A DNA stretch of 64,000 nt, taken from the NCBI GenBank assembly GCA_023374045.1, contig CM041780.1, forward strand, positions 94,025,005 to 94,089,004. Reading direction: 5' to 3'. Position numbers and translations under genes: made by a program. Shown one piece after another: positions 1 to 47,665 of this stretch. The DNA is from Limonium bicolor. Its lineage: Eukaryota; Streptophyta; Magnoliopsida; Caryophyllales; Plumbaginaceae. The stretch's first letter is position 1. Every line of letters starts with the position of its first letter. The notes beneath the pieces are model-generated. The model ran no database searches. It was not told the DNA's origin and was given only the letters and a program-made list of their open reading frames with translations.

Positions 1-1227
1 TTTGTCAAGTTCTAAACAATATACAAACATTATAATGAGTATTCAAGCTATAAGCTTCATCTCATTTTAAACCCTAATTTTACATTGTTTCAAAAACATT
101 AATGTAGTTGTTTTACCTTGATCTTTGAAGAGAGTTTGAATATCTAACAAGAGAGGACTCTACCTAGTCCATGAAGAGTTGGAATGAAGCTAGAACAAGG
201 TCACACAAAGAGCTCCTTCAATATGTATTTTCGGTCACAACAAAAACATGAAGGAAATGAAGTTTTTATTTGAGATTCCTTACCTAGAAGCAAAGGAGAG
301 TGACAATATGTAAAAATACAAGCTCAAGCTCCTTCAATGGTGGAACTCCATGGCACCGAAATGGTGGTCTTGGAATTTTAAGAAGATAGAAATGAAGAGC
401 TTGATGAGAGGAAAGATTGGTGGTGTTTGTTTTTGATTTGGACAAGTGAGCTAGATTTTACAAGAGATCAAAGATGGAGATGGTGAGTACTATTGCAAAC
501 CGTGAGAGAATGAAGAAGAGAGGTTGAAGAAGGTGTTTGGAACCGTGGAAATGAAGGAAAGAAGAGAGAATGAGATAGAATTTGCTTTGAAGATATTTAT
601 ACTTTATAAAGTAAAAAAGGTACTTAAGTAGTTTCTTTATTTTCTTAACAAGCTAACAAGGGTGGTGTGTCACCAACCTTAAAAACCGGCCCCCAATAGT
701 AGTGTGAGGGTATTATAGTCTTTATTTGTCAATTTAATTACTTATACAACATGTGTTACAAAATAGCTTATAAAAACCACTATTCATGAAAACAAGGCAC
801 ATAGAAGTGAAATTTTGATTTCCCATTGATATAGACATCCAAATGTGATATTATATAGTACACATATATATTTAAGAGTAATGATGGACATCTAGCCACT
901 CAAAACTCATTTACAAGACAATTTTTCAAAAATGTGCTTTAAGACTCCTTAAAGCACATTTTGTGTTTAAACTTGTTTTCAAGCTTGGTTTTCTTTGGTA
1001 ATTGGTTTAATATGTTCATTAGCATATAATTAAGATCTTGGTAAGTTCATTAGGTCTTAACCAAGCTTACCCCAAGCTTAGAGCACATTTTGGCCTTTAT
1101 TGACCTTAAAGCACATCTTGTGTTTTCTTTTGTTTAAATTTGTTTACTAATGGTTCTAAGACTCTTTTTAGTTTTAATATACCATATTTATGTGTTTAAA
1201 CAATATATTAAGGTTTGGGGTATTTCA
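1..1227 (-). repeat. Left (3') LTR of element A, partial
   Basis: Near-identical to 10410-11633. Differences are mostly one- or two-base indels plus a few substitutions. It ends with ...GGGGTATTTCA directly before the PPT. The remaining roughly 2.7 kb of this LTR lies left of the window. Confidence 0.93.
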
Positions 1228-1240
1228 TCTACCCCCTTAA
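1228..1240 (-). other. Polypurine tract of element A
   Basis: On the minus strand this reads TTTTAAGGGGGTAGA immediately before the LTR start TGAAATACCCC. It is the plus-strand primer for reverse transcription and confirms the element's minus orientation. Confidence 0.85.
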
Positions 1241-1552
1241 AAGAACTTTGCCCTCAAGTTCATACTCCACATATCCTAAATATTAGAACACGGGAATACT
1301 TATAAACAATACTTCCTACATCATTAACAACACACTTATATAACATTGGACACAAGGTCCATACAACATAACATCGGGTACATAACATTGGACACAAGGT
1401 CCATACAACATTATCCACATCATTCAGACACAGCGGTCTGTAACATAACAACATAACATAGACGATGTATTCAAATACACGTCGTACACACATAACCGAA
1501 ACGGCTCACCCCCCTTAAAAGGGGTACGCCCCGTACCCTATACACATAAGCA
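1241..1552 (-). other. 3' untranslated spacer of element A
   Basis: Non-coding stretch between the integrase stop and the PPT. It holds a duplicated motif of about 30 bases (ACATTGGACACAAGGTCCAT around 1343-1373 and 1383-1412). I see no gene in it; the short open frame here has no recognisable protein features. Confidence 0.6.
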
Positions 1553-2470
1553 CTAAGAAGTAAACAATGACGGGTACTTCGCCTTCATTTTATCTTCCAG
1601 CTCCCAAGTGGCCTCCTCAACGTCCTGGTTAGACCAAAGAACTTTCACCAGTCTCACAGACTTATGGCGAGTGTCTCGAGTCTTAGTATCCAGAATCCGT
1701 ACCGGAGTCTCCACTGATCGCATGGTCGGCTCTAAGGTTAGCCTTTCAGGCTGAAGCACATGAGACGGATGAGACATATACTTCTTCAACTGGGACACAT
1801 GAAATACATCATGTACCTTGCCCAGCTCGGCGGGTAGATCTAGTCTATAGGCTACCGGGCCGATCCGCTCCATCACAACGTAAGGCCCCACATATTTTGG
1901 GCTCAACTTGCCCTTCTGGTCAAAACGAAATACTCCCTTCATGGGGGATACTCTCAAAAATACCTGATCACCCACGGCGAACTCCAGGTCACGTCTGCGC
2001 ACATCTGCGTACGACTTCTGTCTATCCTGAGCTGCCTTCATGTTAGCCCGGATCTGGCGAACTTCTGCCTGAACTTGTTCAAGATACTCTGGTCCTATAA
2101 TGACCGTCTCACTCAACTCATCCCAGCATAACGGCGTGCGGCATAGTCTACCATACAAGGCCTGGAAGGGAGACATCTTGATCGAAGCATGGTAACTGTT
2201 GTTGTAACTAAACTCGATCAGATGTAACTTATCAATCCAGCTGGTCTGAAAGTCAAGTGCACAAGCACGTAGCATATCCTCAAGTGTCTGAATGGTGCGC
2301 TCACTCTGACCATCGGTCTGTGGGTGAAACGCTGTACTCAATTTCAGTTCAGTACCCAATGCCTCTCGTGTAGACTTCCAATATCTGGACAAGAATCTGG
2401 TATCTCTGTCAGATACTATCGTTTTCGGTACACCATGATGTCTTACAATTTCTTTATCAAAGAGTTCTGC
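1553..2470 (-). CDS. Integrase core and C-terminal part (element A pol)
   Basis: C-terminal part of the pol polyprotein, which inserts the cDNA into chromosomal DNA. It is in the same frame as the upstream RT ORF and separated from it only by an in-frame TAG at 2471-2473. The open reading continues through 2470-2393 with a VSDRDTRF motif (second catalytic Asp), then HPQTDGQSER with the catalytic Glu (residue 31 from the Met at 2392). The first Asp is in the preceding ORF. The C-terminus has the GPY-like segment (KYVGPYVVMERIGPVAYRL) and a chromo-like tail (VKVLWSNQDVEEATWELEDK), as in chromoviruses. The enzyme would be active only if the TAG were read through or is not real. Confidence 0.92.
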   Translation of the reverse strand, partial: AELFDKEIVRHHGVPKTIVSDRDTRFLSRYWKSTREALGTELKLSTAFHPQTDGQSERTIQTLEDMLRACALDFQTSWIDKLHLIEFSYNNSYHASIKMSPFQALYGRLCRTPLCWDELSETVIIGPEYLEQVQAEVRQIRANMKAAQDRQKSYADVRRRDLEFAVGDQVFLRVSPMKGVFRFDQKGKLSPKYVGPYVVMERIGPVAYRLDLPAELGKVHDVFHVSQLKKYMSHPSHVLQPERLTLEPTMRSVETPVRILDTKTRDTRHKSVRLVKVLWSNQDVEEATWELEDKMKAKYPSLFTS

Positions 2471-4315
2471 CTATCTTGCCACTTTCCAAGTGTCCTTCAT
2501 CGGAATGAATCGGGCCACCTTGGTCAGTCGGTCAACTACAACCCATATCATATTCAGACCTCCCCTTGTAGGCGGAAGCCCTACTACAAAGTCCATGGAG
2601 ATATCATGGAACTTCCACTCAGGCACTGGCATTGGCTGTACCATACCACCAGGCCGTCGGTGCTCAAACTTGACCTTCTGGCAAGTGAGACACCTCAACA
2701 CATAATCACTTACATCTTTTTTCATTCCAGTCCACCAAAAATATCTTTTCATACTCTTATACATCTTTGAAGCTCCGGGGTGAATCGAAGTAGTAGAACA
2801 ATGGGATTCACTCAATATGCGCTCCTTCAACTCAGCACTACTCCTAGGTATACACAATCGTCCATTCAGCCTAATCAGGTCATCATCGTGGAGTCTGAAG
2901 TCGTACTTCTGACCCTCGAATGTGCCTTCAATAAGCTTCTGCCGGATCTCCAGCATATACTGATCCGTCATCTGAGCACTCCGCACCTCTTCAACCAAGC
3001 CAGTATGAGAGACTAGCGAATGGAGAGAGTGTGCTCGGCGACTCAATGCGTCAGCTACCACATTTGCCTTACCCTCTTTATATTGCAGATTAATATCATA
3101 GTCGTTCAGAAATTCAACCCACCTCCTTTGCCTCATGTTCAACTCCTTCTGAGTGAACAAGTACTTTAAGCTTTTGTGGTCGGAATAGATTGTCACACTT
3201 ACCCCATACAAGTAATGTCGCCATATCTTCAATGCGAAGACAATGGCACCCAATTCTAAGTCGTGGGTAGGGTAGTTCTCCTCATGCTTCTTCAGCTGTC
3301 GGGAGGCGTATGCTACGACCTTCCCGTGTTGCATCAATACACAACCCATACCTCTACCTGATGCGTCCTCAAAACCATCTGGACCGTCTGGTATAGTCAG
3401 GACTGGTGCAGATGTCAGAGCATCCTTGAGACTCGTGAAAGAACTCTCACAGTCGACTGTCCACTCGAATGGTGCATCCTTCTTCATTAAGGAAGTCATC
3501 GGCTTCGAGACACTGGAGAAGTCCTTCACAAACCTCCTATAATAACCTGCCAGACCGAGGAAGCTCCTGATATCAGTGACTGTCTTCGGCCTAGGCCAGG
3601 TGCGCACAACATCAATCTTTGCCGGATCAACAGCGATCCCGGCCTCAGAAATCACATGTCCAAGAAAGGACACTTGGTTCAACCAAAATTCACATTTCGA
3701 AAACTTTGCATACAACTGATTCCTCCTCAATGTTTGTAACACATTTCTCAGGTGGCTTTCGTGCTCACCTCTTGATTTAGAATACACAAGAATATCATCG
3801 ATGAAGACTACCACAGACTTGTCCAACTGGTCTTGGAACAAGCGGTTCATTAAGTCCATGAACTTAGCTGGTGCATTTGACAAGCCAAACGGCATAACTG
3901 TGAACTCATAATGCCCATACCTAGTTCTGAATGGTGTCTTTTCGATATCACTATCACGGATGGCAATCTGATGGTATCCGGAACGTAGGTCTATCTTGGA
4001 GAATACTGATGCTCCCCTCAGCTGATCAAATAGATCGTCGATGCGTGGTAAAGGGTAACGGTTCTTCACCGTAACAGCATTCAGCTCTCGATAATCAATA
4101 CACAGGCGGAGGCTACCGTCCTTCTTCTTCACGAAGAGGACCGGCGCTCCCCATGGTGAAACACTAGGGCGAATAAAGCCCTTGTCGAGTAGGTCTCTCA
4201 GCTGCTCCTTGAGCTCTGTCATCTCTGCTGGAGCCATACGATAAGGTGCTTTCGCAATGGGTCCAGTGCCCGGAACTAAGTCGATCTCAAACTCAACCTC
4301 TCGTGCTGGCGGCAT
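2471..4315 (-). CDS. Reverse transcriptase, RNase H and integrase N-terminus (element A pol)
   Basis: Central part of pol, 614 codons from the first Met. RT spans about residues 25-215, with CIDYRELN near 72-79, MPFGLSNAP near 141-149 and the catalytic VFIDD at 170-174. RNase H follows, with D317, E354, D379 and D422 as likely acidic residues. The strand just before D317 looks shortened ([12 protein letters not shown] where the family usually has a few more residues), so a small in-frame deletion is likely. The integrase zinc finger is H505, H512, C542, C545, and the first DDE Asp is D575 (SMDFVVGLP). The ORF starts 40 bases inside the end of the protease ORF in another frame: relative to the family, one base appears to be missing near 4306-4312. 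It ends at an in-frame TAG. Confidence 0.95.
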
Positions 4316-4921
4316 GCCGGCAGTTCCTTAGGAAATACATCAGGAAATTCCGACACTACCGGCACATCAGAACTAAACTCTGGGTCTCTCTCTATGTCCT
4401 GGACATAGCAGAGGTATACATCACTTCCTCGTCGTAACTCACGATACATGGCCATGGCGGTGATGATCTGTGTCGAAGGCTCCCTGGGCCTCTGGCGGTA
4501 TGATATGGTAACCCCAGATGGACTCCGAAGAAGCAGTCGATGCTCGGCACATAGGATTCTGCCCTTGTACCGCTCCAACCAGTTCATCCCGACAATCACA
4601 TCAAATCCAAGTCCGTCGAACTCTATCAAGTCGATCGGAAACTCTTCACCTCTGATTCTTACAGCAGCATCTCGGTGGTAGCGGGTACACCTGATCCGCT
4701 CTTTCGATGGGAGAGTGACCAAGAAGTCTGGCATCTCATCACCATCTAACCCCAGCCTCTTCGCAGAAGATAGTGAAATAAATGTGTGTGAGGCTCCAGA
4801 GTCGAACAAGATCGATGCATCCACGCCATTGACTGGAAAGGTACCGGTGAGGATTGTGCCGCTCTTGCCGGCTTCTGCCTCATTGCAGACACTCATGTAC
4901 CTCCCGTTCCGAGTGCACAGC
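4276..4921 (-). CDS. Aspartic protease (element A)
   Basis: Retroviral-type aspartic protease that processes the gag-pol polyprotein. The catalytic motif [11 protein letters not shown] has its Asp at residue 32 from the Met at 4896; a flap-like region and a GMNWLERY segment follow. The frame stays open upstream of that Met, and a splice-acceptor-like ATTAG at 4926-4922 sits just before it, so the protein may begin in a spliced exon at 4921 rather than at the Met. It lies directly after the AlkB exon. A single-base frameshift separates its end from the RT ORF. Confidence 0.9.
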
Positions 4922-5112
4922 CTAATTCATTGGCAAACTAATAAGTACTGGGTAACAACACGGTTGATATACTTCAATAACTCCACTTTATTCATTAACA
5001 CATTCTCTTTACAACATTGTTGGTTTACACGGTTGACATAACTTAACACATACGTAACTTCCTTAACATATACTGGCTTAACACATTACAAAATTATACA
5101 AGGCTTTAAAAC
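4922..5112 (-). other. Putative intron between AlkB and protease
   Basis: An AT-rich 191-base stretch with several stops separates the AlkB terminus from protease. A GT at 5112-5111 and an AG at 4923-4922 would join AlkB to pol in frame (phase 2 on both sides), bypassing the TAA at 5108-5106. The donor (CA|GTTTTA) is weak, and phase agreement has a one-in-three chance of being accidental. The alternative is that AlkB simply ends at the TAA and pol is expressed separately. Confidence 0.4.
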
Positions 5113-5845
5113 TGTCTGAAGGTCAAATTCAAATGTCCGGGTTTCATGTGTGTGGCATTGATCACTGCCGACGGTGCGGTATTCAGTTTGATCTTCCTGA
5201 TGCCATGGTACAGCATCCTTGACTGCCCACCCATAACTAACACATCTCCTGACTTTAGTATTAACTTCCTTGCGAGATCAGCATGCTTCTGCTCGCCATA
5301 CACAAACACTGCGGTATCACCAATGGACCAAGACACCACGGGTACTCCCTTACTTAGAGACTCGGGTGACTCGTCCTTATCTTGGTGTAAACCTAACCGT
5401 CCACCTTTCTGGTAGAAGTTCACAATACACAAATTTGTTCTCACATCTGGAATTGAATCCGTTTCAACTTGTTGAGCAATTCCCACGGCGTGATTAACGA
5501 CCGCACGGAACTCCTCAGGTATACTTGGTACTGTTGCTCCATCTTCAGCTCGCACTTCTTGATATGACTTGGTGTAAGGGTTCCAGTCCTTACCCATGCA
5601 CATCATCTTCAATTGCATTCTTGATCCGTTCGGATATTCGGGTGTGTAGAAACCTCCAGGTTTAGCTCCAAGTTCGTTGCATCATCTGATGACATGGATT
5701 TGTGCTTCCGGTGTCAGGTATCCACTTAAGAGTATCATACCTGGCTGGATAACCTGACATTGCTCCATTGGAAAGTCGGTGATGTTGATGGTGGTTTCTT
5801 CAGGGTTTGGTGTGGGTGGGATTGGATAACATATATTGAAGGTTC
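5106..5845 (-). CDS. AlkB-type 2-oxoglutarate/Fe(II) dioxygenase domain inside the retrotransposon
   Basis: An AlkB/ALKBH1-like domain of about 245 codons. The family oxidatively removes methyl groups from nucleic acid bases using Fe(II), O2 and 2-oxoglutarate. From the Met at 5618: NFY at 67-69 (2OG contact region), HQDKDE with iron ligands H78 and D80, third ligand H138 (LYHGI), and the 2OG-binding end NLTFRQF with R168. The first Arg of the usual RxNxxxR motif is His here (H162). Upstream in the same frame lie the N-terminal parts typical of plant ALKBH1-like proteins (PGMILLSGYL, ELGAKPGGFY), interrupted by one TGA at 5682-5684. The reading frame continues to an intron acceptor at 5846, whose partner donor lies in gag. 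It ends with TAA at 5106-5108. The coding stretch has no intron inside it, unlike a typical host gene, which suggests capture from an mRNA. The assignment to the AlkB family is firm; substrate and activity are unknown. Confidence 0.93.
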
Positions 5846-5992
5846 CTTTAAGTTTAGAATTATCTAATTAGGTGTCTTTCACACTATACTCTAACTCCTT
5901 ACTCACATGATAATACACTTGGACTCATTAATACACACATGCATGAAATGCGGTATGCAATCACTTATTACATTCAACAGTTTAGGCGGTAC
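5846..5992 (-). other. Intron joining gag to AlkB
   Basis: Canonical GT (5992-5991, context CCAG|GTACCG) and AG (5847-5846, context TTAAAG|GAACC) enclose 147 bases with stops in frame. Removing them joins the gag zinc-knuckle exon and the AlkB exon in phase 1 without a frame change. The gag frame otherwise stops four codons past the exon end. Confidence 0.65.
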
Positions 5993-6337
5993 CTGGTCTA
6001 GAAGAGGGCCCTGGCGCCTCAGACCGGTCCACCACATTCAGGGCGGCCTTGCTAGGTCCCGACCTCTTCCCCTTCTGGGAATCAGTGTGCCTCTGATCTG
6101 TGGGTGGCTGGTTAGCCATCTTCGGGCCATCAATAGCTGCAGTGGCCTTACCCTTCCACTGCCCCCTGGGCTTGTTGACTCTGCTGTTGGGGTTCCGGTA
6201 ACACTCGTGGTCACGGTGACCCCACTTCTCGCAGTAACGACACTGCACCTCATTTCCCTTGCAGTCCTTGCCGGGGTGGTCTCCATTGCACCACTTACAG
6301 TAATAGTGGCGCTCCGGTCCAGAGCCCGTGCTAGCTG
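5993..6337 (-). CDS. gag exon 3: zinc-knuckle nucleocapsid region (element A)
   Basis: Nucleocapsid part of Gag, which binds the element's RNA in the particle. It contains two knuckle-like motifs: YYCKWCNGDHPGKDC, and CRYCEKWGHRDHEC (CX2CX4HX4C). A basic, Gly/Pro/Lys-rich tail follows (PRGQWKGKATAA, KGKRSGPSK). It is bounded upstream by an intron with a tandem TAG-CAG acceptor (both choices keep the frame) and downstream by the donor at 5992. This exon is intact. Confidence 0.85.
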
Positions 6338-6417
6338 CTATCACAATACACCATCAATACTTGTTTCACAACTTATCAACATGTACTTCAACTTATCACA
6401 CAAGATTAAATAATTAC
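6338..6417 (-). other. Intron 2 in gag
   Basis: About 80 bases from GT at 6417-6416 (AAGG|GTAATTATTT) to AG at 6339-6338 (GTGATAG|CAG), with an alternative acceptor three bases on. Removal restores a continuous gag frame between a basic linker and the zinc knuckles. Retained, it gives a stop within about 27 codons. Confidence 0.65.
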
Positions 6418-6784: not shown

Positions 6785-7455
6785 CTGCAAGGTAGTATAC
6801 TCAGCTGGCCCCATCCCATAGCGAAGACGGTGGCTGAGACCGTTGTAAAAACGGTTTACCAGCACCCGGTTCGAGTATCCAGGTCCGGTAACAGGTGGAT
6901 AAGGCCGGTGAATGCAGTGTAATACTCATCAACCGACACCTTGTCCCCCTGCCTCAGACTATCCAGCTCCAGGGCTTGGCCTCTTGAACATGCACAGGGT
7001 AGTATTTGGCTCGCAGTAGAGCCGTATACCCTCCATCCAAACTGAGGATCCGCCATCCGGTCCTCTCTCACAAGCTTCCACCAGTTCTGTGCCGAACCCT
7101 TCAGGTAGTAAGCGGCAAGACGGACCTTAGCCTCTGCAGGTACAGCCAAGGTCTCGTAGGCGGTCTCCAACTCGGAGATGTACGCCTCCAGCTTACGTGG
7201 GTCGGTCTCCCCATGAAATGAAGGGGGTCTCAAGTCTGCCAATGCCTTGACCCAGTTGGTCTCTCGTGGCGGTGGCGGTGGTGGTTGAACTCCGGGCATC
7301 TGCCCCTGCTGTATCGCAGCTACAAGCTGGGGTACCATCTGGGCTACAGCGGCTGCTACAGCCTCAGCCATAACCTGAGCCGTAGTGTTCTCGCCCTGGT
7401 CACCCGTATCACCAGTACCGCTTCCGCGGCCTCTACCTCGCGGTCTACCTGCCAT
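6785..7455 (-). CDS. gag exon 1: capsid region (element A)
   Basis: Start of Gag. The Met at 7455 is followed by an Arg/Gly-rich N-terminus (GRPRGRGRG), a low-complexity Gln/Pro stretch, and then the retrotransposon gag domain (TDPRKLEAYISELETAYETL, KVRLAAYYLKGSAQNWW, DSLRQGDKVSVDEYYTAFTGLI). It is damaged: a short wrong-frame stretch at about 7000-7035 implies two compensating indels. A further frameshift near 6890 moves the reading to the frame that continues to the donor at 6784. A CAG sits right before the start ATG, so the ATG could also follow a leader intron. Confidence 0.82.
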
Positions 7456-7654
7456 CTGTATTCACATGAATATTCATTAGCAAAATGCTTGCACACTTAT
7501 CGGTCCAACGGTTGTAACGCTTCCCGACAATAAGGTATCTCCACACTTAGTTAGTGGTTAACCTTTCCATAATGTTCACTGAAGTAACTGTAGTTAGGTT
7601 TCCTAACTCGGTATATCCCTAAGCTCGGTATTCTAGTCATCAGAGCGATACTTC
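7456..7654 (-). other. 5' leader of element A
   Basis: About 200 bases between the PBS and the gag start. No coding signal. A TACAG|ATGG context at the gag start resembles a splice acceptor. Confidence 0.5.
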
Positions 7655-7666
7655 GCTCTGATACCA
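7639..7666 (-). promoter_or_regulatory. Primer binding site (initiator-Met tRNA) within a hairpin
   Basis: The minus strand reads TGGTATCAGAGC at 7666-7655, complementary to the 3' end of plant initiator-Met tRNA and five bases from the LTR. Part of it forms a perfect 9-bp inverted repeat (ATCAGAGCG at 7639-7647, CGCTCTGAT at 7654-7662) with a six-base loop. Confidence 0.9.
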
Positions 7667-7671
7667 CTTTT

Positions 7672-10600
7672 TGTAACACCCCTACTACGCACATCACTAA
7701 ATGAAATCGCAGCGGAAATAAATAACTAAACAGTAACTAACACTTCGGTGCTACAACGCCGTCAACCACCCACGTGGTTGACAAGGCAGAATAAATACAA
7801 GTGTACCGGTCTGATGATCAGACTCCCGAGCATAAAACTAAACCATAAATACATCATATACAATACCGAGTATTACATACATCCTTCACTGTATCACATA
7901 CTGTTAACTGTCACAACCAATATACAACACGCCACGGGAGCACAGGCGCATCCCGGGCCAACATCCAAAAGTACTCAAAATAAACACATCCTAGGATCTA
8001 AGCCACTCCGCTTCTTCGATCCTCATCCTGCAGTATAAGAAATATGGATCCCCCGAGGGGGTCAGCAACCCTTGGCTGGTATGGTTAACGCGCAGCCCAT
8101 CGGCTACCGGGATACGCGCAACTAATTGTCATGATAACATGGCATTCATATACATAACACAACATAACATGTGGCATAGCATCAATAGTGCACAGCACAA
8201 ATCACATACACAGTGGATCTTCGTTCCACAATAACAAACCACAAGGGTCAAATAACACAAGAGCCTAGAGAATGATTCACCCTCATGTTAAGCTCGTTAC
8301 ACACACTCATTACCGTTCTGTTAGTCGAACGAGTAACTTAAGTCACAGATGGTTCGGATTTAGTGACCCGAACACACCACAAAACACATGTTCCCACTAA
8401 ACCGACATAAGTCAGAATAGGTAAGCTTTGGAGGAAGCTAGCGGGAGATCGAACGCCAAATTAAGGAGAACAATCTTAACAACATAAGAGTCGAATCTGA
8501 TTCAGATATCTACTCTTAACTTACATGCATGACCGGACAACCGGATTCCTCACTTCCCAGTTAACACTTGTTAGAAGTTCATAGTGGAACTTAACACCAA
8601 TACACAATAAGTGGTAAGTCATGTTAGACACACACAAGGGAATGAGTCACATCATAACATCACAATTATATGAACAACTGTAAACTCATTACATGTTTAG
8701 ATCTATAACGTCATAAACACACAGAAAAACATACAACACACAAGCCGGTGTAAAGGTAGACAACAGACTGCAAGAAAACCATACCTTGGTCCTTGCCTTG
8801 ATTTGTTTCCACCGTAGGTCACTCCTATACATAGTTAATGTCGGTTAATTTTATTTAACCTTCAAACTTACTAAGTTTAACATGATTGTTGACATGTTTT
8901 AATGTCTAACTTACCCTAGGTTACCTTCATTATACACCTAGGGTTAACTACATAAGTCACATTCTTTTCTGTTTTTTTAAGTTTTGGTATGTCCGACCCA
9001 CCGTCCGACCCACAACTGGGTCGGACCCTTCCAGTGGTTTCCGGGTCTGAAGAACCTTACCATGTCCGACCCATGTCCGACCCAACCTTCTGGGTCGGAC
9101 CATTCCAGAGACATGTCCGACCCACGTCCGACTCACTCGACTGGGTCGGTCGGACCATTGCAGAGAATTTCATCGACCTCAGAACATGCATGTCCGACCC
9201 ATGTCCGACCCACCCTTCTGGGTCGGACCATTACAGAACATTTTACCGCCTTACAAACACGCCCGTCCGACCCACGTCCGACTCACTCGACTGGGTCGGA
9301 CCGTTCCAGAACATTTTCCCTCCTTTGAAATATGACCGTCCGACCCATGTCCGACCCACCCTTCTGGGTCGGACCATTCCAGAACAATTTCCTGACGTCT
9401 AACAGAGGCTGTCCGACCCAAACTTGGGTCGGAACTGGGTCGGACGTCCTCTAAACTTACCCAAACTTATCAAATCTTCACCAAACTTCCCTACAGCCTC
9501 TTAATGTTTCCTAACAACATTTGGTACCCTTATATCCACATACAACATCCATGAAACTCATTTTCTAATTCCTTAAGCCTTTACTTATTTCCTTGTAAAA
9601 TTCCTTAAACTTATGTTATTTCCTCCTTAGTTTCCCAATGGTATTTCATACATATGATAACTACTATCCCAAATGCTTTCTCCTCATCTTAACATCATCT
9701 CTTAAGCATTATTTCTCAAACTAACTCCTTATGTCATTCTTGAAATTCTTTTCCAAGTTTACACTTTCTCCTTATTTTACCAAAGTTTGCCTAAGTCTTT
9801 ACCTAAGTCCAAAATGACTTTGGTACATACTAAAACCTCAAGCTCATGCCTAAGTCCTTGTTACACTAGAACACTTAAGACATTATATCTTCTCTTATAA
9901 AACACCTAGTCATTTCCAACACCTCTAATTCACCAAACCTCATGTAAACACTTAGAACTTCTTGCTTCTTACCTAAATTTCGACATAGGTTCTCCTAGAA
10001 CATTACTAACCAAAACATATTGTTTTCACCAACAAAAAACCAAGAACACTAAGAATCCACCAAGCACTTTCTTATACACAAACTTCACTCATATAGCACC
10101 ACATCACAATATAGTGCATAATTTAAATTGCATTGGCACTTAGGCCCTTAAGATGCATAATCATAAACACTGAATTTCCACAATATATTTGCCTTTGACC
10201 TGCAAATACACTCAACAACACATATGCCTTACTAAGCTCTTGAGAACACTTTACTAAGTCATTCACCATTTGCTCTTTAGGTAGTTTTAAACAAGCATTA
10301 TAAGCTCATTTCTCCTAAGGCATTAAACAACATTAGGTTAGTAGATTTACCTCTTTTCCAAACAACTTCTTTCTTGTTTCCTTTAAAAACCGGCAAGGTA
10401 CTTGATTCTTTTGTCAAGTTCTAAACAATATACAAACATTATAATGAGTATTCAAGCTATAAGCTTCATCTCATTTTAAACCCTAATTTTACATTGTTTC
10501 AAAAACATTAATGTAGTTGTTTTACCTTGATCTTTGAAGAGAGTTTGAATATCTAACAAGAGAGGACTCCACCTAGTCCATGAAGAGTTGGAATGAAGCT

Positions 10601-11633
10601 AGAACAGGTCACACAAAGAGCTCCTTCAATGTATTTTCGGTCACAACAAAAAATGAAGGAAATGAAGTTTTTATTTGAGATTCCTTACCTAGAAGCAAAG
10701 GAGAGTAACAATATGTAAAAATACAAGCTCAAGCTCCTTCAATGGTGGAACTCCATGGCACCGAAATGGTGGTCTTGGAATTTTAAGAAGATAGAAATGA
10801 AGAGCTTGATGAGAGGAAGAGATTGGTGGTGTTTGTTTTTGATTTGGACAAGTGAGCTAGATTTTACAAGAGATCAAAGATGGAGATGGTGATGAGTACT
10901 ATTGCAAACCGTGAGAGAATGAAGAAGAGAGGTTGAAGAAGGTTTTGGAACCGTGGGAAATGAAGGAAAGAAATGAGAGAATGAGATAGAATTTGCTTTT
11001 GAAGATATTTATACTTTATAAAGTAAAAAGGTACTTAAGTAGTTTCTTTATTTTCTTAACAAGCTAACAAGGGTGGTGTGTCACCAACCTTAAAAACCGG
11101 CCCCCAATAGTAGTGAGGGTATTATAGTCTTTATTTGTCAATTTAATTACTTATACAACATGTGTTACAAAATAGCTTATAAAAACACTATTCATGAAAA
11201 CAAGGCACATAGAAGTGAAATTTTTGATTTCCCATTGATATAGACATCCAAATGTGATATTATATAGTACACATATATATTTAAGTAATGATGGACATCT
11301 AGCCACTCAAAACTCATTTACAAGACAATTTTTCAAAAATGTGCTTTAAGACTCCTTAAAGCACATTTTGTGTTTAAACTTGTTTTCAAGCTTGGTTTTC
11401 TTTGGTAATTGGTTTAATATGTTCATTAGCATATAATTAAGATCTTGGTAAGTTATTAGGTCTTAACCAAGCTTACCCCAAGCTTAGAGCACATTTTGGC
11501 CTTTATTGACCTTAAAGCACATCTTGTGTTTTCTTTTGTTTAAATTTGTTTACTAATGTTTCTAAGACTCTTTTTAGTTTTAATATACCATATTTAAGTG
11601 TTTAAACAATATATTAAGGTTTGGGGTATTTCA
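7672..11633 (-). repeat. Right (5') LTR of element A, complete, 3962 bp
   Basis: Bounded by TGTAACACCCC next to the PBS and GGGGTATTTCA at 11633. Its last 1224 bases match the left LTR. It contains no protein gene. A GTCCGACCCA hairpin array lies at 8990-9450, followed by an AT-rich, C/T-biased stretch. Confidence 0.93.
8990..9450. repeat. GTCCGACCCA / TGGGTCGGAC inverted-repeat array in LTR A
   Basis: Seven units spaced about 50-80 bases apart. Each has two direct GTCCGACCCA-like words, then a 5-7 base spacer, then the inverse GGGTCGGAC, so each can fold into a hairpin. Between units lies a looser repeat (CATTCCAGAACATTTT-like). About 20 CCGAC cores on both strands result. CCGAC is the core of the plant low-temperature/DRE element; any regulatory role is inference. 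Confidence 0.85.
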
Positions 11634-15964: not shown

Positions 15965-16225
15965 TGGGAGAGATAGCCCCCACCGCCAGATATAAATGTC
16001 CATATGGACGAGGGATATACAACCCCCTGCCGTCAGATATAAATGTCCTTGTGGACGAGGGTTATACATCCCCCTGCTGTCAGATATAAATGTCCTGGTG
16101 GACGAGGGATATACAGCCCCCTGCTGTTAGATATAAATGTCCTTATGGACGAGGGATATACAACCCCCTGCTGTCAGATATAAATGTCCTTGTGGACGAG
16201 GGATATACAGCCCCCTGCTGTTATC
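15965..16225. repeat. 47-bp minisatellite in LTR C (left copy)
   Basis: About five units of a 46-48 base repeat containing GATATAAATGTCC, GGACGAGGGATATACA and CCCCCTGCTGT. The word TATAAA recurs in each unit. The right LTR has about four units at 60345-60540, so the copy number differs between the two LTRs. Confidence 0.85.
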
Positions 16226-17942
16226 GGTGAAGACGCGCGCACGTCACAACAAAAGACTCAGCTCATGGATGAAACAATATCCAGAGTCAAAGGAAGAATT
16301 ACCAAGATTGTCCTTTTCCATATTCCCACTAGATCACTAACTGCACCAGAGCAATACCAAAACACTTAGTCCTACAGAGTGCAGAAGCGTAAACCCTAGG
16401 CAGTTAATGTCTAATGAAATAACCAAATAGAAGGAACCAATAACCATGTAAGTCTCACATTCAAGGCTCAGTTAGTCACATAAAGCTGAGTTAGCCACAC
16501 CAACAGTTTCCATTTGAAATTCCTTTAAACTCAGTTAGTGTTTTTCAAAAACGTCTCATAAGTCGGTTAGTAAAAGTATCAGAGTACGAGAAATCGTACC
16601 TGGTTAATGTTGTAGCAGTTCTAGTCGACTTGTGCAAATATTCAACAATACTCTGAGGAATAGTAAAGGTAGTCTAACATCAATAACTTGTGGCCCAAGT
16701 TAAACTTAAATAAATTCCTCACTCTTATTTCTAAGTCTCAATTGTCTTTTAAGCCCTCACTTAAATGTTATGTATAACCTTTGACTTGTCTTAGAATGTT
16801 GTATAACTCAAGGTTGTAAGACCAAGGAATGTATTATATTAACACTTGTTAATCGCTCCACTCTTATCCTCTTTACCCATACTTAACCATAATTCTCACA
16901 TTAAGACCTTTATAACATAAGTGCATTATATGTTATTCAATCAATCTTAGAATTTCGATAACAATTCTTAAGCTCACTACTTTTATTCTTAATTTAGAAT
17001 AAACATCGTATTATGACCTATGATAGGTTTATCTTAGAATACCATACTATTATTTCAGAATGTAATGTTTATGTAATTTTATCATTATCTGCTAGTTAAC
17101 CCAATATGGTTAAATCTTCCTCTTAACTTAATTAAGATATACATCATGTATATTGGAATCATAGTGTTGTAAATGCATTTTATTATAACGTAATTGAGCT
17201 ACCAAAACCAACTATCTTACCCTTAGTTCAGAATGACTTCTAATTACAACCATGTAATAATCTTGTCATAAGATGTTCAATTACTTCCCATCTTGAAATA
17301 ACTATATTTTAATTAACTTAAACTTATCGAATTCTTACATTTAGTATTCATAAAGTATATTATTTACCTAATTATTACATATATAATAAGGTGGTTTAAG
17401 GTAACCTTTTATGTATCCTTGCTTACATTCAATCTCCTAAATGTTTTATTTTTACACACATTCCCTTCATAGACTATGTACAATCCTTTTATACTAAACT
17501 TTAATAAACTTATGTCTTAAATACGTTTTTGATCGTTTACGAAGCCTAAAGTTTCAAAGGAATAACTTAACAAATTAATTCCCCTGATTATGTTTTAGGA
17601 TAAGCATTATATCTTAACTATGTAAAAATTTATCTAAGAATTAATTCTCATTATGAGTCAAATTGTCGATTATTTAATAGGATCATCTATCCTGAAAAAT
17701 CCTCATACCTTATATTCAAATTATATATTAATATTTTCAGTGTCATAAAATAGATCAATCAAATCTCTTATGTAACTCAGTTTCATCTAATTAAAGGTTC
17801 AAGGGTTTAAGTATCTAATTTATATTTACAAACCTTTTATAAGTTCTAGCCATTAATTACAACACTTATTTTTAACCTCACATTCTGAATATTGGTAATT
17901 AACGCATTTAATATGGCTTCTCTAATTTTAAGAAACTCAAGG

Positions 17943-23290: not shown

Positions 23291-25954
23291 ATCTACCAAC
23301 TACTCACACCCTTTCAGGTGTGCGGGTAAACTAAGCATCAAGTTATATTACCAGCTCTAAAATGCATATCAAACAATCAAACCACTCAAGGATATTCATC
23401 CCATAACAATTCCAAACCATAATTTCCATTTCATCATTCTCCATCCCTAAATAAGGATCCATTCCACCCAAGATCAACCATTAACCAAACCAAAATGCCT
23501 CATAATTAACATCCAGTTGGTGCAAGATGTAAATGTCGTGAACTACCACTCAGAATACATTATCCAACAAGGTTGTTTCAAAACCAAGCACAACAATATG
23601 CATGGACCACACTGGACTTCCAAACATTTAGTTTTTGTCTTCTTTAATTACTTGATGTTTATTCAAACACCACATACCAAAAATTCAGCACCTTACTATC
23701 AAGCTTTGTTGTAATTTTTATTGCACTGTGATTTTATCTATAATTGGTATATATGTATCTTCTGATTGTTATGTGTCTGCATTTTCTTGATTATTATAAA
23801 ATTTTAGTTTATGATCCCTATCTATTCATTTTATGACTGGTACGAATGATATGTCCATTATATGTTCATTTTATATTATATGGTTATTTATGGGGAGGTC
23901 GTACCCCCACCCCTTAAAAATAGGGTACGACCCATACCCGTCTCGTAATAATGAAGTGAAATTTAAACTCATTTTTAAGGGCAAAACATTTTACATCTCC
24001 TATGGAGACTCCTTCTTCAAGGATGCAGTTCATTGTCTGCATATGTGTACACCGGTTCTAACCATCATCCAAAATTTAGTTGGTCACTCTTTTTAAATAT
24101 ACTTTACTTGTTAATTGACTAGATAGTCAACATAGCATTTATTTCGATCATGGTCATTTTATTGGACAGAACCTTTCAGGTTTAATTAGCACTCCTCATT
24201 TAAGGTTTACTGTTTGTTACTCCTAATTCTTTTGATTGAAGGCATTAAGTGAAGTTTGCATTTTTACCTTTGGTTCATTATCTGATGCACAATATCACTC
24301 GTTGTTATTCTTGCTTGATGGTAATTAAATCTTTTAGTGTTCCCAACATGTTTTCCTAACTCACTTCGCCTCTCTTACAGTCATTAAGTATTTCCTTCAT
24401 AAAAATTTACTTATCATATATTTATATAATTTCACCCAGGGCAGAGTTTTAGAAAGTTCTTATCAATTAAAATATAGCTCCAAAATCTGATTTTGTTATC
24501 TTAAATTGCTTTTTCAAGGTAGGAACTCTATGTAAATTTTTTTTTGTCAAATGAATTAGTCTAGTGAAACTCACTCTCTCTTGATAACTATTTGTCTTAA
24601 GGTTTGTTCTATGTAAGTATTCCTCTGATCATTAAATCTTAGTACTCTCTTAGATAATGGTGGCTTTTATTTAATATCACTCTTAATGTGACTTCTAAAA
24701 TTTTATATATGTATAATGTTAAACTTCTGAATAAACATGAGAATTTCCAATCTTTAAGTAACTTCCTTTAATGGTTTGTATATTCAACAAGGGGTAGATG
24801 TTCTACCTTGCAGTAACCAAATTTAACTCTCTTTCCTCCATATATTGGTATATTCTACCACTTCATCCAACATTCATATTGTTGTTATAGGGTTATTCCA
24901 GGCTTCTCATAAAGTTTATGTGCCAAAAGAAATCAACCTGAACCCAGGTTTCAACATCATTACTCATGTGTTTTCACTCCATATGTAAGTATTTTTCACC
25001 AAGGATTTAACTCGGTAAACTCTTTACATGTATGAATTTAGTACTGGATCTTAATATATAAGTTTTGAATTGTTCATTGTGGCTAGTAATGAAATGTGCC
25101 TAGCTCAAGATTTCATGATGGTAACGTCTTACCACCACTCCTCCTCAAGTTCAACACAATCCATCACTTGCGTAGAAGATTATTTACGGTTAGATGGCAA
25201 GGCTTGTCTAGCCCCTAAACTTCCAGAAGTGGGTGTGCACCCCCACTACTTTCGGCCTAGGAGTTCGTCGCACCAGGCACTTCCCGTAGGGTGTTAGGTT
25301 TAGGTGTTTTCTTTCTAAAGTTAACATAGAGTTTTAGTGTAGTTTACAGGTTCAATGTTGATCTTTTCTAATATGCTACTAGTTCTTGTTAGCTTAATAA
25401 TTTTCTAGACTTAAAATTTATCTTAAACATTATCTTTAGGTAATTATTTGTACCAAGTAGTTCTTGAGATTTATTTACAAGCTTTAAAGAAATTGAAGTA
25501 CATATCACTTAGTAATTCAAAGCTCCATTTGTATACTATTTTCAACCAAAGGGATTCTTTAAAGTTCTAGGAACATGTGTACTAGCTTTTAAAGGATTGC
25601 ATTTTTAGCAATGTATTCTCCATAAGTATGCTTTTGAAAAATAGCTTAATATTTGATTTATCCCAACCAAAATCTTATCGTACTCAATATACGATGTTCC
25701 AAACTTATATTTTTTACTGTAGTTTAATGTTTGAATGGTATAACAGCACACCACACTCAACAGACATTCATAAAAGAAAAGTGTGTAAAGGAATCATTCA
25801 CAATTCCAAGAAGGGTTAGGAGTCGTGCCTTACTAGAGTCCTCACTTCCCAATTCTACCCCAATTCCCCAGTTTTAAGTGCACCTATATTCTAAGTATTT
25901 CACTCGGCTTGTTTTCTCGGGTTTAGAGCGTAACTACGCTCTGATACCAATTTC
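23028..25954 (-). other. Internal region of element C, non-coding
   Basis: About 2.9 kb of AT-rich DNA. No gag, protease, RT or integrase motif on either strand, and the short open frames do not resemble known proteins. A perfect inverted repeat GGTCGTACCC/GGGTACGACC lies at 23896-23930. The element looks like a large non-autonomous (LARD-like) derivative; loss of the coding part by deletion is equally possible. Confidence 0.65.
25925..25949 (-). promoter_or_regulatory. Primer binding site of element C, also in a hairpin
   Basis: The minus strand reads TGGTATCAGAGC (25949-25938), complementary to initiator-Met tRNA and five bases from the LTR at 25955. AGAGCG (25925-25930) and CGCTCT (25937-25942) form a stem with a six-base loop, as at the PBS of element A. 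Confidence 0.88.
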
Positions 25955-42793: not shown

Positions 42794-44139
42794 TCAGACA
42801 TAATATCGTTTCAACTGATCGAGATTGACAAGGCTTTGAAAATTTTCTCCGTCTAGATCTGTCAGCAATACCGCACCATGAGGGGTTATCTCTTTGACCA
42901 GATAGGGGCCCACCCAGTTCGGTCTGAATTTCCCTGCGGGTCCGGCAAATCCTTTCTCAACTCTTTTAGGACGAGATCACCCACTTGGATGATTCGTTCT
43001 TTGACCCTTTTGTTGAACGATCTAGCCATTCTCTTCTGGTAACCCTGGATATGTTATAATGCATGTAGGCGCTTTTCATCAAGAAGAGCTAAACTGTCAT
43101 AGCGTTGTTGCATCCAGTCACTTTCAGCGATTTTCAGTTCATTAGCGACTCGAAGAGTTGGAATTTCAAGCTCAATTGGCAAGACACATTCTGACCCGTA
43201 CACCAAGGAATACGGGGTGGCTCCGGTTGCAGTTCTGACCGTAGTTCGGTAACCCCAGAGAGCATAATGCAGCTTTTCTGGCCACTCTCTGTATCTCAAC
43301 CATTTTTGACAATGCGCTTTTTACAGCTTTGTTGGCGGCTTCGACTGCTCCGTTAGTCTGAGGCCTGTATGGAAATGATCTGTGGTAACGTATGTTGTAT
43401 TTTTCCATGACCCGGATAGTGTCTCCGTCGTATTGAGGACCGTTGTCTGATACGAATTCTGAGGGAACCCCGTATCGGCATATGATGTCTCTCTCGATAA
43501 ACTGGGCAACTTGTGTTGATCCAATATTCGCAAACGACTGTGCTTCGACCCATTTACTGAAATAGTCTATTGCCACAAGGATGTAGCGATGCCCATTCGA
43601 AGCTTTAGGGTGAATCTCACCAATGATGTCGATTCCCCATATAGAGAACGGCCAAGGAGCTGCCATGGCTGTTAGGGGTAGGGGAGGCAGGTGTTGCAAA
43701 TTAGCATGCGTTTGACACTTGGCGCACTTTTTCACAAATGCGTGACAGTCGGCTTCCATTGTTGTCCAGTAGTACCCTAGTCTGAGGATTTTCCGGGATA
43801 GGGAATGTCCTCCAACATGGGTCCCACATACTCCCTCGTGGACATCCTCGATGATTTTATCAGCCTCTTTTCGGGTCACACATAAGTGTTGGACTCCATT
43901 CGGCATTCTCTTGTAGACCCTAGTTCCGCATATTACGTATTGACTTGACATTCTTCTCAGCGCAATGCGGTCCTGCTTAGTGGCTTCTAGCGGATACTCT
44001 CCTTTTCTAAGGAAATTCTCAATGTCCACGAACCACTCATCTTCGGTTTCTTCTACTTCGATGACTCCAATCTCGAATGAGGGTACATTAGTCATGGTTA
44101 TCCACAAAAGGAAGTACAATGAACCGGTCGGTACTTGGA
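42794..44139 (-). CDS. Integrase (element D pol)
   Basis: C-terminal pol domain. The zinc finger is HVGGH with CAKC; the catalytic DDE is in WGIDIIGEI, FVSDNGPQYDG and QTNGAVEAANK. After KMVE near 43300 the reading shifts by one base into the frame carrying YREWPEKLHYALWGYRT. A further shift near 42915 leads to GPYLVKEITPHG and the LDQLKRYYV end at a TGA (42796-42794). This is the GPY/F-type C-terminus; no chromodomain is seen, as expected for Tat. At least two frameshifts make it non-functional as read. Confidence 0.9.
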
Positions 44140-45012
44140 CTACTGAAGCCAAGGATGCCAAGGAGTCGGCGAAGATATTCTGGCTACAGCTCACATGCTT
44201 GAAAGTCACGTTTCGAAAGGAGGTGACTAGGTATGAAAGGTAGTCATGGTAGGGGATCAATCGTTCTTCTCTGATCTCCCAAGTCTGGTTGACTTGTGAA
44301 ATAACGAGATTAGAGTCGCCAAAGACTTCTAACTCCTCCACTTGCAATTCTAACGCCATTTCCAATCCCTAGATGCAGGCCTCGTACTCTACCATGTTAT
44401 TAGTGACTGGGTAATTGATTTTTACCACAGCTGGAAGCAGATCCCCTTCAGGATGGATCAACAAGATCCCGGCCCCTTTTCCCTTATGGTTGACAGCACC
44501 ATCAAAGTACAACCTCCAACAGGTTTTTCGTAATGTCATGATTTGCTCATTCGGGAAGTCATCATTTCCGAAGAGCTCGGATGCTACGGGGCATTTTGCT
44601 AGGTGTTCGGCTATGGCACTCCCTTTGATTGATTTTTGAATTTTGAAAGTGATATCGAATTCGGATAACAATAGGGACCATCTGGATAAGCGACCGTCAA
44701 GAATTGGCTTTTCCAGAAGGTACTTTATAGGGTTCATGCGTGTAATCAGATGAACCTCTTGCCCTAACAAGTAATGTCTTAGTTTCTTCGTAGCCCAGAC
44801 CAAAGCAGCGCAAAATTTGTGGATGTCGGAGTATCGCGTTTCCGTATCAACCCATTTTTTACTGATATGGTAGATCGACTTTTCGCGCGGTGGGGATCCC
44901 TGTTCCTGGGCCAGCATGGCGCCCATTGACGTTTCTCGGGCAGTGAGGTAAAGGATCATTAGCTTACCCTCCTGGGGCTGTACCAAGACTGGCGGGTTCT
45001 GTAGATAGGTTT
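44140..45012 (-). CDS. Degenerate gypsy RNase H plus archaeal-type RNase H (element D pol)
   Basis: The first part (44986 to about 44560) is the usual gypsy RNase H fold but lacks its acidic residues (LYLTARETSMGA where Asp is expected, LITRMNP where SDH is expected). The second part (WRLYFDGAVNHKGKGAG, then VFGDSNLVISQV) is an archaeal-type RNase H with its Asp residues in place. This pair marks the Tat/Ogre lineage, in which the second domain is thought to replace the first. An in-frame TAG lies at 44371-44369, inside the second domain. A frameshift near 45020 separates this part from RT. Confidence 0.87.
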
Positions 45013-45906
45013 TTATCTTTTCAATGTTTCATGACATTGTTCATTCCAGACTTTAGACGTGTCTTTCTTCAACAGACGAAAAATAGGCTCACAGGTCTCG
45101 GTTAGCTGCATGATGAACCTTCTGATATACTGAACTCTGCCTAAGAAACCCCTGATTTCTTTTTCGGTCTTCAGAGACATTTCTTGAATGGCTTTTATCT
45201 TATCTGGGTCTACCTCGATTCCACGGGTTGTGATCAGGAAATCCAGAAGCTTTCCCCCGGTTACACCGAATGTGCATTTTTCCGGGTTGAGTTTCATTTG
45301 ATATTTTCGCATTCCGTCAAAGAACTTTCTCAAGTTTGTCAGGTGGTCCTCTCGTTGGGCAGCTTTGACGATCATGTCATCTACGTATACCTCCACTTCC
45401 TTGTGGATCATATCATGCAATAGTGTAGTGGCAACCCTTTGATACGTGGCTTCGGCATTTTTCAAGCCAAAGGGCATGTTTACGTAAGAAAAGGTTCCCC
45501 ACTGTGTAATAAAAGATGTTTTTTCCTGATCTTCTACAGCCATTCGGATTTGGTTGTAACCCGAAAATCCATCCATGAATGACAGTAACGCGTGTTGGGC
45601 AGTATTATCAACAAGGATATCAATGTTAGGTAAGGGAAAGCTGTATTTGGGGCTGGCCTCGTTTAAGTCCCGAAAATCGATGCACACTCGCACCTTTCCA
45701 TTTTTCTTTAGGACGGCTACGATATTGGCTAACCAATTAGGGTAGTTGACGACCCGGATATATCCGACACGTAGCAACTTCTCAACTTCCTCTTTTACTT
45801 TCAATTGTTGCTCAGGTTTCATTCGTCTTAAACGTTGCTTCTTAGGTTTGGCATTGGGATACAACGGTATTCGGTGTTGGACAATGTCAGGGTCGATCCC
45901 AGGCAT
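45013..45906 (-). CDS. Reverse transcriptase (element D pol)
   Basis: 297 open codons from the Met at 45906. Motifs: KKNGKVRVCIDFRDLN (68-82), MPFGLKNA (144-151), the catalytic YVDD at 174-177, and the thumb/connection segment FLGRVQYIRRFI. The RT type is Tat (YVDDMIVK). The frame extends upstream of the Met; the true polyprotein start is farther up. It ends by frameshift at 45013. Confidence 0.95.
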   Translation of the reverse strand: MPGIDPDIVQHRIPLYPNAKPKKQRLRRMKPEQQLKVKEEVEKLLRVGYIRVVNYPNWLANIVAVLKKNGKVRVCIDFRDLNEASPKYSFPLPNIDILVDNTAQHALLSFMDGFSGYNQIRMAVEDQEKTSFITQWGTFSYVNMPFGLKNAEATYQRVATTLLHDMIHKEVEVYVDDMIVKAAQREDHLTNLRKFFDGMRKYQMKLNPEKCTFGVTGGKLLDFLITTRGIEVDPDKIKAIQEMSLKTEKEIRGFLGRVQYIRRFIMQLTETCEPIFRLLKKDTSKVWNEQCHETLKR

Positions 45907-45956
45907 GTCTGCGTAACTCCAAGCAAAAACATCGACATATTCGGTTAGTAGAGAAG

Positions 45957-46790
45957 TCAGGTCCTGTTTTCAGCTTCACTCAGACCCGAACCGACTTGCA
46001 AAGTTTTGGGGTTATCAGGCGTTCCGATATTTATTGCCACAGTATCCTCTACAATCTGGGTGTGAGTGGAATATTGTTCTGTGGGAGGCATATTCCCCTC
46101 ATCATATTCCTCCTCTTCGGCCTCAAGAATTTGTAATGAATCGAACGTTTGAGAAGACATAATAGATGAATACTCTGAACAAACTAAATTTCCATTAATA
46201 TCCGATGAGCTTGGGAGCTCTGAGATTGTCAGAAAATTGCCACCATTTTTACAAGTGAAAATAAATGGTGGCGATCCTTCCCCTAGTCTAATTCTATTTG
46301 CATTGCCGATGTTCTTATTACACTGATAACTGCATTCATCACTAGTAACATTGCCATCACTACTGCTACTATCATCGTCACTACCAACTAGACTAACTAC
46401 GTAAGGCTCCTGGGAAATCAGCTCCTCTTTCTCATGATAGACGACAAGACACGCTCCATGGCCATCTACCAAGGGTGCGGGGTCCTTGATGACTGGTTTG
46501 ATCATGATACTGCTCTCCACTGCATCCTCAGGCATTTCTTGGTCGCATCCCTTGTCGTCATGGTCTTCAGGGCATGAGTTGAGGGAGAATAAAGTGGTCC
46601 ACCAGCTCCCCCACTCCATTGTCTCTTGATCCTCCTGGGCCCGAGCTACTCTCTGCTTATCACAACTCACAGATACATGAGGTTCAAGGTTAACGGATAA
46701 GAAAGAATCTGTGGGAATTCTTACATGCGAATCTGTCAACATCATACCTGGCATTTCTAAATCCCAACCCGGCTCCTCGTCCTCCAACAT
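45957..46790 (-). CDS. Acidic linker between protease and RT (element D)
   Basis: 277 codons, rich in Glu, Asp and Ser, with no catalytic motif. It ends in GSGLSEAENRT, directly before the RT region. In Ogre elements this interval between protease and RT often contains a spliced intron; I see no clear donor/acceptor pair here. It overlaps the protease/G-patch ORF by a frameshift near 46700-46790. Confidence 0.65.
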   Translation of the reverse strand: MLEDEEPGWDLEMPGMMLTDSHVRIPTDSFLSVNLEPHVSVSCDKQRVARAQEDQETMEWGSWWTTLFSLNSCPEDHDDKGCDQEMPEDAVESSIMIKPVIKDPAPLVDGHGACLVVYHEKEELISQEPYVVSLVGSDDDSSSSDGNVTSDECSYQCNKNIGNANRIRLGEGSPPFIFTCKNGGNFLTISELPSSSDINGNLVCSEYSSIMSSQTFDSLQILEAEEEEYDEGNMPPTEQYSTHTQIVEDTVAINIGTPDNPKTLQVGSGLSEAENRT

Positions 46791-47647: not shown

Positions 47648-47665
47648 AGTAAGGTCATGGACCTT

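Follow-up and report, generated by a model that had tools for sequence, protein, structure and literature searches.

A sea-lavender Ty3/gypsy retrotransposon lineage carries an ALKBH1-type gene, probably as an alternative exon joined to Gag

A 64,000-nt stretch of the sea lavender Limonium bicolor genome (GenBank assembly GCA_023374045.1, contig CM041780.1, positions 94,025,005 to 94,089,004 of the forward strand; hereafter the window) holds on its minus strand a Ty3/gypsy long terminal repeat (LTR) retrotransposon with an AlkB-type dioxygenase domain between gag and protease. A matK frame on a contig of this assembly points to the same genus, with 95% identity over 81% to a Limonium matK cluster as against 87% to Popoviolimon and 79% to Plumbago. 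At the level of sequence, the capture of an ALKBH1-type gene by this chromodomain-bearing lineage is real, old and conserved, and sequence likewise documents selection on the captured domain, its splice sites, and genomic copies bearing both predicted splice junctions in each of two subfamilies, A and B. We consider it probable that the lineage took up a plant ALKBH1-type gene long ago and has since kept it as an alternative exon, from which three products arise: Gag, Gag-AlkB and Gag-Pol.

A preliminary description of the window had placed an AlkB-type domain in sense between gag and protease of a Ty3/gypsy element, and profile searches bear this out: PF13532 matches the window open reading frame at 5106-5681 (-) with an E value of 1.1e-41 (143.7 bits, cut-off 31.2), on the strand and in the order described. 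The frame given there, 5106-5845, has as its bound 5845 exactly the first base after the predicted AlkB splice acceptor; it is interrupted by one in-frame TGA at 5682-5684, so that the open frame ends at 5681 and the window copy of AlkB is broken. Across the genome, 150 scored matches to the AlkB profile (the best of 38,325 candidates from a first look) all had E values from 7.4e-47 to 2.6e-45, which excludes a chance match, and 149 of them had no stop inside the domain. Open copies encode a 253-residue AlkB frame with iron ligands H161, D163 and H221, numbers that replace the H78, D80 and H138 first assigned.

By sequence and by modelled fold, the element's AlkB is a plant ALKBH1-type enzyme and not an ALKBH5-like one. 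An AlphaFold model of AlkB from copy L003 (predicted local distance difference test score 91.8, predicted template-modelling score 0.90) was searched with Foldseek, and the best Protein Data Bank (PDB) matches were 5xoi and 5xeg, both OsALKBH1 (template-modelling scores of 0.92-0.93 by target, 49-50% identity), with E. coli AlkB (~30% identity) and human and mouse ALKBH1 (~20%) lower down. Searching the PDB with phmmer also returned 5xeg first (E = 1.9e-70), and ALKBH5 was absent among the 21 matches; it is this agreement of fold and sequence on OsALKBH1, with no ALKBH5 among the matches, that supports the assignment. Among the best 120 of 1,186 protein matches, many of the named proteins were ALKBH1C/D or DNA N6-methyladenine demethylases. 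The element AlkB shares its fold and its iron and 2-oxoglutarate ligands with OsALKBH1 and plant ALKBH1C/D, and an N-terminal F-N/D-I-C-P motif with host proteins (FNICYP in the element, FDICP in hosts), but lacks about ten loop residues present in most host-type rows of the alignment. Across 44 aligned rows the H, D, H, N and Y columns are invariant and the two R columns nearly so.

The domain belongs to the family and not only to the window copy. Twenty loci fetched on AlkB matches fall into subfamily A, which includes the window copy, and subfamily B, with AlkB ~70% identical between the two; AlkB lies beside protease on the sense strand in 20 of 20, with a gag match ahead of it in 19 (none was seen in L018). 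A less biased sample started from the protease (40 rows listed, 30 loci extracted), and 28 of these loci were picked by the protease start alone (82 bases, 100% match). Gag and AlkB lie upstream of protease in 28 of 28 A copies so picked, and all seven cofactor residues (the HxD...H ligands of Fe(II) and the R, N and Y that bind 2-oxoglutarate) are kept in 25 of these 28 unselected copies. The other two loci, L030 and L031, lack AlkB and carry an exact junction in its place. Since 28 of 30 loci carry AlkB, the domain is neither confined to one copy nor missing without trace from other members, and the earlier reading is supported to this extent: the domain is a lasting part of the family, at the same gag-protease position in other copies of this genome. 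A one-off insertion of AlkB is rejected by the same 28 copies.

A third subfamily, C, surfaced with a Silene ALKBH1 query, which gave 95 scored matches, 51-60% identical and all without intron interruption. Limonium's own ALKBH1 gene was not found among these 95. The only C copy read, L070, runs from gag knuckles through AlkB to protease, its AlkB being 58% identical to that of A and B, and the other 94 matches are presumably of the same kind. Its protease start is split at a phase-1 site by a 73-nt stretch, ACAG^GT...CTCAG^GT, that resembles a further small intron. The AlkB element is very abundant in the sea-lavender genome. At C1:497439142-497479546, C1:98426630-98448822, C7:92180125-92191194 and C2:386603537-386613759, matches recur at a regular spacing of 10-11 kb, like tandem arrays of elements with common LTRs.

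Two predicted introns share one donor at the end of gag and differ in their acceptors. In the window copy the parts are:

5982-6353 (-): gag C-terminal part with two Cys/His knuckles (knuckles by eye; in Pfam only a sub-threshold PHD match)
5991-5992 (-): predicted splice donor CCAG^GT, common to both introns
5846-5847 (-): predicted AlkB splice acceptor AG^GAACC; intron 5846-5992, 147 nt in this copy
5106-5845 (-): AlkB (ALKBH1-type) exon, coding frame to stop, with the interrupting TGA
4922-4923 (-): predicted pol splice acceptor AATTAG^GC; intron 4922-5992, 1,071 nt, removing the whole of AlkB
4276-4926 (-): aspartic protease (Pfam RVP_2), here with a frameshift close to its start

In subfamily A, Gag ends three residues after CCAG^GTACC (G-T-A in the window copy). 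Among 41 unspliced A copies the donor GT is kept in 41, the pol acceptor AG in 41, and the two bases of the AlkB acceptor AG in 40 and 41, while the two bases preceding that acceptor vary (kept in 24 and 26 of 40). A single gag-to-pol frame results in A when CCAG is joined to the G that precedes TGT GCA, upstream of protease. The AG^GA just ahead of the FNICYP motif is in phase with the gag donor, and no ATG precedes the motif; a Gag^AlkB junction was therefore predicted, and it was then found by search.

In subfamily A, that junction gave nine full-length and two partial matches among 41 rows. Ten of these 11 copies were inspected, and CCAG^GAACC was read letter by letter in nine, with L065 showing the same gap by alignment. 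The Gag^Pol junction was present in two of 40 rows, L030 (97%) and L031 (88%), both with the letters CCAGGTTGTGC at the joint; L030 has its gag and protease matches in one frame. On the protease side L030 is 91-95% and L031 88-91% identical to eight A copies, as against ~72-73% to B, and the two are nested in subfamily A, each nearest to a different A copy. Subfamily B, in which the sequence around the sites differs from that of A, has the same two junctions by alignment only: Gag^AlkB full-length in 11 of 60 rows (94-99%) and Gag^Pol in three of 40 (89-99%). A decoy AG^G site inside AlkB, by comparison, gave a junction in 0 of 40 rows. The joints are also in one frame in A for Gag-AlkB (L058) and, as read from one copy each, in B and C. 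In L058 nothing interrupts the passage from the gag knuckles into AlkB (...SSRP^GTFNICYP...), and a stop follows further on in AlkB. The sites and phases of the single C copy examined equal those of A and B. On a tree of 53 A copies, which leaves out L067, L041, L030, L031 and six B copies as short matches, the nine copies with a Gag^AlkB junction fall in five places by topology.

Because genomic copies carry both predicted junctions and the decoy yields none, alternative splicing to Gag, Gag-AlkB and Gag-Pol is the most likely explanation. Unspliced RNA would encode Gag, ending shortly past the donor; removal of the short intron (~145 nt) would join the nucleocapsid end of Gag, in frame, to AlkB; and removal of the long intron (~1.07 kb, containing all of AlkB) would fuse Gag to Pol. 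The intron loss being exact, the simplest reading of the junction copies is that they are reverse transcripts of spliced RNA. A Gag-AlkB protein, if made, could by virtue of its Gag part enter the virus-like particle and there remove methyl groups from packaged nucleic acid, be it the genomic RNA, the single-stranded cDNA or the primer tRNA, helping replication or escape from host control. The preliminary description had proposed capture of an ALKBH1-like gene, which holds for this Ty3/gypsy family, and had missed the alternative exon in the gag-pol intron; its suggestion that the enzyme removes methyl marks from the element's own RNA or cDNA may describe its role. More tentatively, we propose that regulated alternative splicing chooses among Gag, Gag-AlkB and Gag-Pol, and that the demethylase is packaged beside reverse transcriptase (RT), acting on genomic RNA, single-stranded cDNA or a presumed initiator tRNA-Met (tRNA-iMet) primer. 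ALKBH1 proteins are reported to remove N6-methyladenine (6mA) from single-stranded DNA (PMC10469495).

Several observations weigh against splicing to a Gag fusion as the source of the junction copies or as the mode of AlkB expression, or against sustained constraint on AlkB. A full-length Gag^AlkB junction was present in 0 of 48 rows of subfamily C. Excised A copies are clustered on the tree (5 Fitch changes, against a mean of 8.6 and a least value of 6 in 500 shuffles); being more clustered than in any shuffle, several of them share one event, and several junction matches at ~10-11 kb spacing may be tandem copies of one event. Both ends of the junctions share AGG, so the junction copies could in principle be deletions. 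The A frame has a Met at residue 34 in 7 of 7 copies, which makes a free AlkB protein possible in that subfamily. On a strict reading, AlkB is free of stops and frameshifts in only one of the 28 unselected A copies, among which the ratio of nonsynonymous to synonymous substitution (omega) was 0.453 for AlkB, 0.339 for protease and 0.246 for RT (RT in 25 copies), values as expected of dead copies but also of weaker constraint.

The A-subfamily Met34 lies just before the enzyme core and would suit a free accessory enzyme, translated from unspliced or separately spliced RNA and demethylating element or host RNA in the cytoplasm, with the Gag^AlkB junction a minor by-product; for an orchid element, expression of an AlkB-containing ORF2 independently of Gag-Pol has been proposed (PMC9289625). 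We judge this unlikely for Limonium. The F-N/D-I-C-P motif common to element and host proteins lies upstream of Met34 yet downstream of the acceptor, and the acceptor and its phase are identical in A, B and C. In none of 6 B copies, moreover, does the AlkB frame contain a Met before residue 84 or an ATG ahead of the catalytic core; in the fold model, two strands and the first long helix already precede that residue. As a B protein begun there would start inside the fold, expression as a Gag fusion is favoured.

The element's primer binding site (PBS), an exact TGGTATCAGAGC at 7655-7666 (-), is what we take to be the complement of the tRNA-iMet 3' end, and the enzyme might target that primer, removing 1-methyladenosine 58 (m1A58) from tRNA-iMet in the particle and so tuning the plus-strand stop or the stability of the primer. 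ALKBH1 is reported to erase m1A58 from tRNA, and plant tRNA-iMet carries that mark (PMC7475180); in HIV-1, m1A58 of the primer fixes the plus-strand stop (PMC13191261). The same HIV-1 report finds lower infectivity of virus from cells without the m1A58 writer, so erasure might harm the element. Nor is a tRNA-iMet primer special, since most Ty1/copia groups also have a tRNA-Met PBS (PMC6317226), and mammalian ALKBH1 is a distant relative at ~20% identity. Targeting of the primer is, in our view, improbable.

Selection bears on whether AlkB is a useless passenger, carried by chance in a successful lineage. In a codon model of two A and two B copies, omega was 0.121 for AlkB, 0.118 for protease and 0.059 for RT, so that between A and B the AlkB codons, like those of protease, are under purifying selection. 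Pairwise counts between A and B gave dN of 0.215 and dS of ~2, which is saturated. Six B copies gave 0.216 for AlkB, 0.394 for protease and 0.359 for RT, and dN/dS of AlkB within subfamilies was 0.16 in both A and B, a figure from copies picked by AlkB score and hence biased to intact ones. The 27 of 28 copies broken on the strict reading would suit a passenger, as would the two A copies that lost AlkB through a Gag^Pol junction yet persist in the genome. Against this stand the A-B omega of 0.12, the same as for protease, the 25 of 28 copies with all cofactor residues, the continued coding of the domain by A, B and C, which have diverged to 58% identity, and, by eye, a non-coding intron start far more diverged between A and B than the AlkB codons. 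A passenger is accordingly very improbable.

Scarcely tenable is an origin of the junction copies by genomic deletion between AGG microhomologies instead of splicing: those letters are indeed common to donor and acceptors, but both junctions are seen in A and again in B, where the surrounding sequence differs; they are base-exact wherever letters were read (nine Gag^AlkB and two Gag^Pol copies of A), the Gag^AlkB copies occupy five places on the A tree, and the decoy AG^G gave 0 of 40.

Phylogenetic analysis joined ten retroelement-type AlkB proteins in one clade among plant ALKBH1 proteins (ultrafast bootstrap 100, branch length 0.89). Comparison with plant ALKBH1 had been suggested at the outset, and it succeeded in delimiting this clade but not in placing it, the sister relation being supported at 59 only. 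The single clade disfavours separate captures by A, B and C. Four of its ten members, P0001-P0004, are unnamed database proteins (sources ena and lgn) known from protein sequences alone; because they group with A, B and C, the AlkB element lineage may occur in other genomes too. A scan of viral contigs gave one pattern match and no relative, leaving a viral source unsupported.

The window element fills the left 11.6 kb of the window and totals ~14.4 kb, in the order 5' LTR, PBS, gag, AlkB, protease, RT, RNase H, integrase, chromodomain, polypurine tract, 3' LTR. Its remaining features are:

7672-11633 (-): 5' LTR, 3,962 bp, with TG...CA ends
9111-9402: 73-bp tandem repeats within the 5' LTR
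7655-7666 (-): PBS, exact match
6856-7461 (-): gag capsid part (Pfam Retrotrans_gag above cut-off, Ty3_capsid just below)
2471-4327 (-): RT, RNase H and zinc-binding part of integrase (Pfam)
1553-2470 (-): integrase C-terminal part (Pfam SH3_Tf2-1) and chromodomain (21.6 bits, cut-off 25.1)
1228-1242 (-): polypurine tract preceding the 3' LTR, bounds by eye
1-1227 (-): 3' LTR, part within the window; it extends ~2,750 bases beyond the left edge (locus L009)

Both outer flanks carry the target duplication AAAGG, and LTRs, PBS, polypurine tract, target duplication and the gag-protease-RT-RNase H-integrase order together mark a Ty3/gypsy element. It is also a chromovirus by the chromodomain at the integrase C-terminus, in the right place though borderline in score: isolated chromodomains of four other copies gave 24.9, 25.1, 24.9 and 25.6 bits with Pfam Chromo (cut-off 25.1). 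The LTR pair shows 30 differences over 3,927 ungapped sites, and its alignment has 96 gap columns (Kimura two-parameter distance 0.0077; 97.3% identity by blastn with gaps counted). At substitution rates of 7e-9 to 1.3e-8 per site and year, the window element would be young, roughly 0.3-0.55 million years old. Among the best 120 of 7,983 matches to its pol frame, the unnamed ena protein P0127 is 82% identical over 80% of the frame, and named plant pols spanning the whole frame reach ~62%; annotated genomes seem to hold little of this lineage.

The Limonium element combines an ALKBH1-type enzyme, a chromodomain, a presumed tRNA-iMet PBS and a length of ~14.4 kb with a probable alternative exon in a predicted gag-pol intron. 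A plant Ty3/gypsy element with AlkB is already known, contrary to the preliminary remark that no LTR retrotransposon had been described with its own: Phalaenopsis elements of the Ogre/Tat clade (Gypsy_Pa_2799) carry an ALKBH5-like ORF2 with activity on N6-methyladenosine RNA in vitro (PMC9289625). Like the Limonium family, they are high-copy plant Ty3/gypsy elements with an extra AlkB-family 2-oxoglutarate dioxygenase kept over subfamilies and with conserved cofactor residues. They differ in their dual RNase H, tRNA-Arg PBS, ~25-kb length and separate 565-residue ORF2, as described in that report, which gives no AlkB domain in element consensuses of other plants among 121 genomes. Two marks of the orchid family, the ALKBH5-like domain and the tRNA-Arg PBS (the latter judged by our tRNA assignment), are both absent from the Limonium element. 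PMC12786077 and PMC11963269 cite, where they treat the subject, the orchid case only, and among the papers listed by literature searches, titles, term counts and abstract openings revealed no further AlkB-bearing LTR element. New here are the enzyme subfamily, the clade of the element and the proposed way in which AlkB is expressed; as far as literature searches show, this is the first sign of an AlkB exon spliced alternatively onto Gag.

The predicted intron has a precedent in Ogre elements of pea and Medicago, where some of the transcripts are spliced and the reading frame can then continue through the remainder of pol (PMC6317226). No gene inside the Ogre intron is mentioned in that source's passages on it, whereas the ~1.07-kb Limonium intron, between gag and protease, holds AlkB with a predicted acceptor of its own; for a comparable removal from a subset of transcripts, what the Limonium DNA offers is sites, phase and genomic junction copies. 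Plant RNA viruses (Alpha- and Betaflexiviridae) are likewise selfish RNA-based carriers of AlkB, though exogenous and positive-strand, a likeness drawn from their description in PMC9289625. The Limonium lineage is the second among plant retrotransposons in which AlkB is known, and it seems to have arisen independently of the first, differing in AlkB subfamily, element clade and plant order (Caryophyllales versus orchids). Capture on more than one occasion speaks for the importance of methyl marks on element nucleic acid to plant retrotransposons. With the Gag-AlkB junction the enzyme would also have a place of action, the particle, and the idea comes within reach of routine RNA sequencing and enzyme assays. 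Finally, the genome seems to record the alternative splicing of a retroelement in its own copies, a rare kind of evidence.

Elsewhere in the window, a second exact TGGTATCAGAGC at 25938-25949 (-) is perhaps the PBS of another element, and 47-bp tandem repeats occupy 15977-16268. A second element at 43172-51821 (-) is Tat/Ogre-like by eye, with RT at 45013-45969, RNase H and integrase frames at 43172-45028, a stretch within 46690-47325 that is G-patch-like, and, at 50985-51821, a frame resembling by eye the plant mobile domain.
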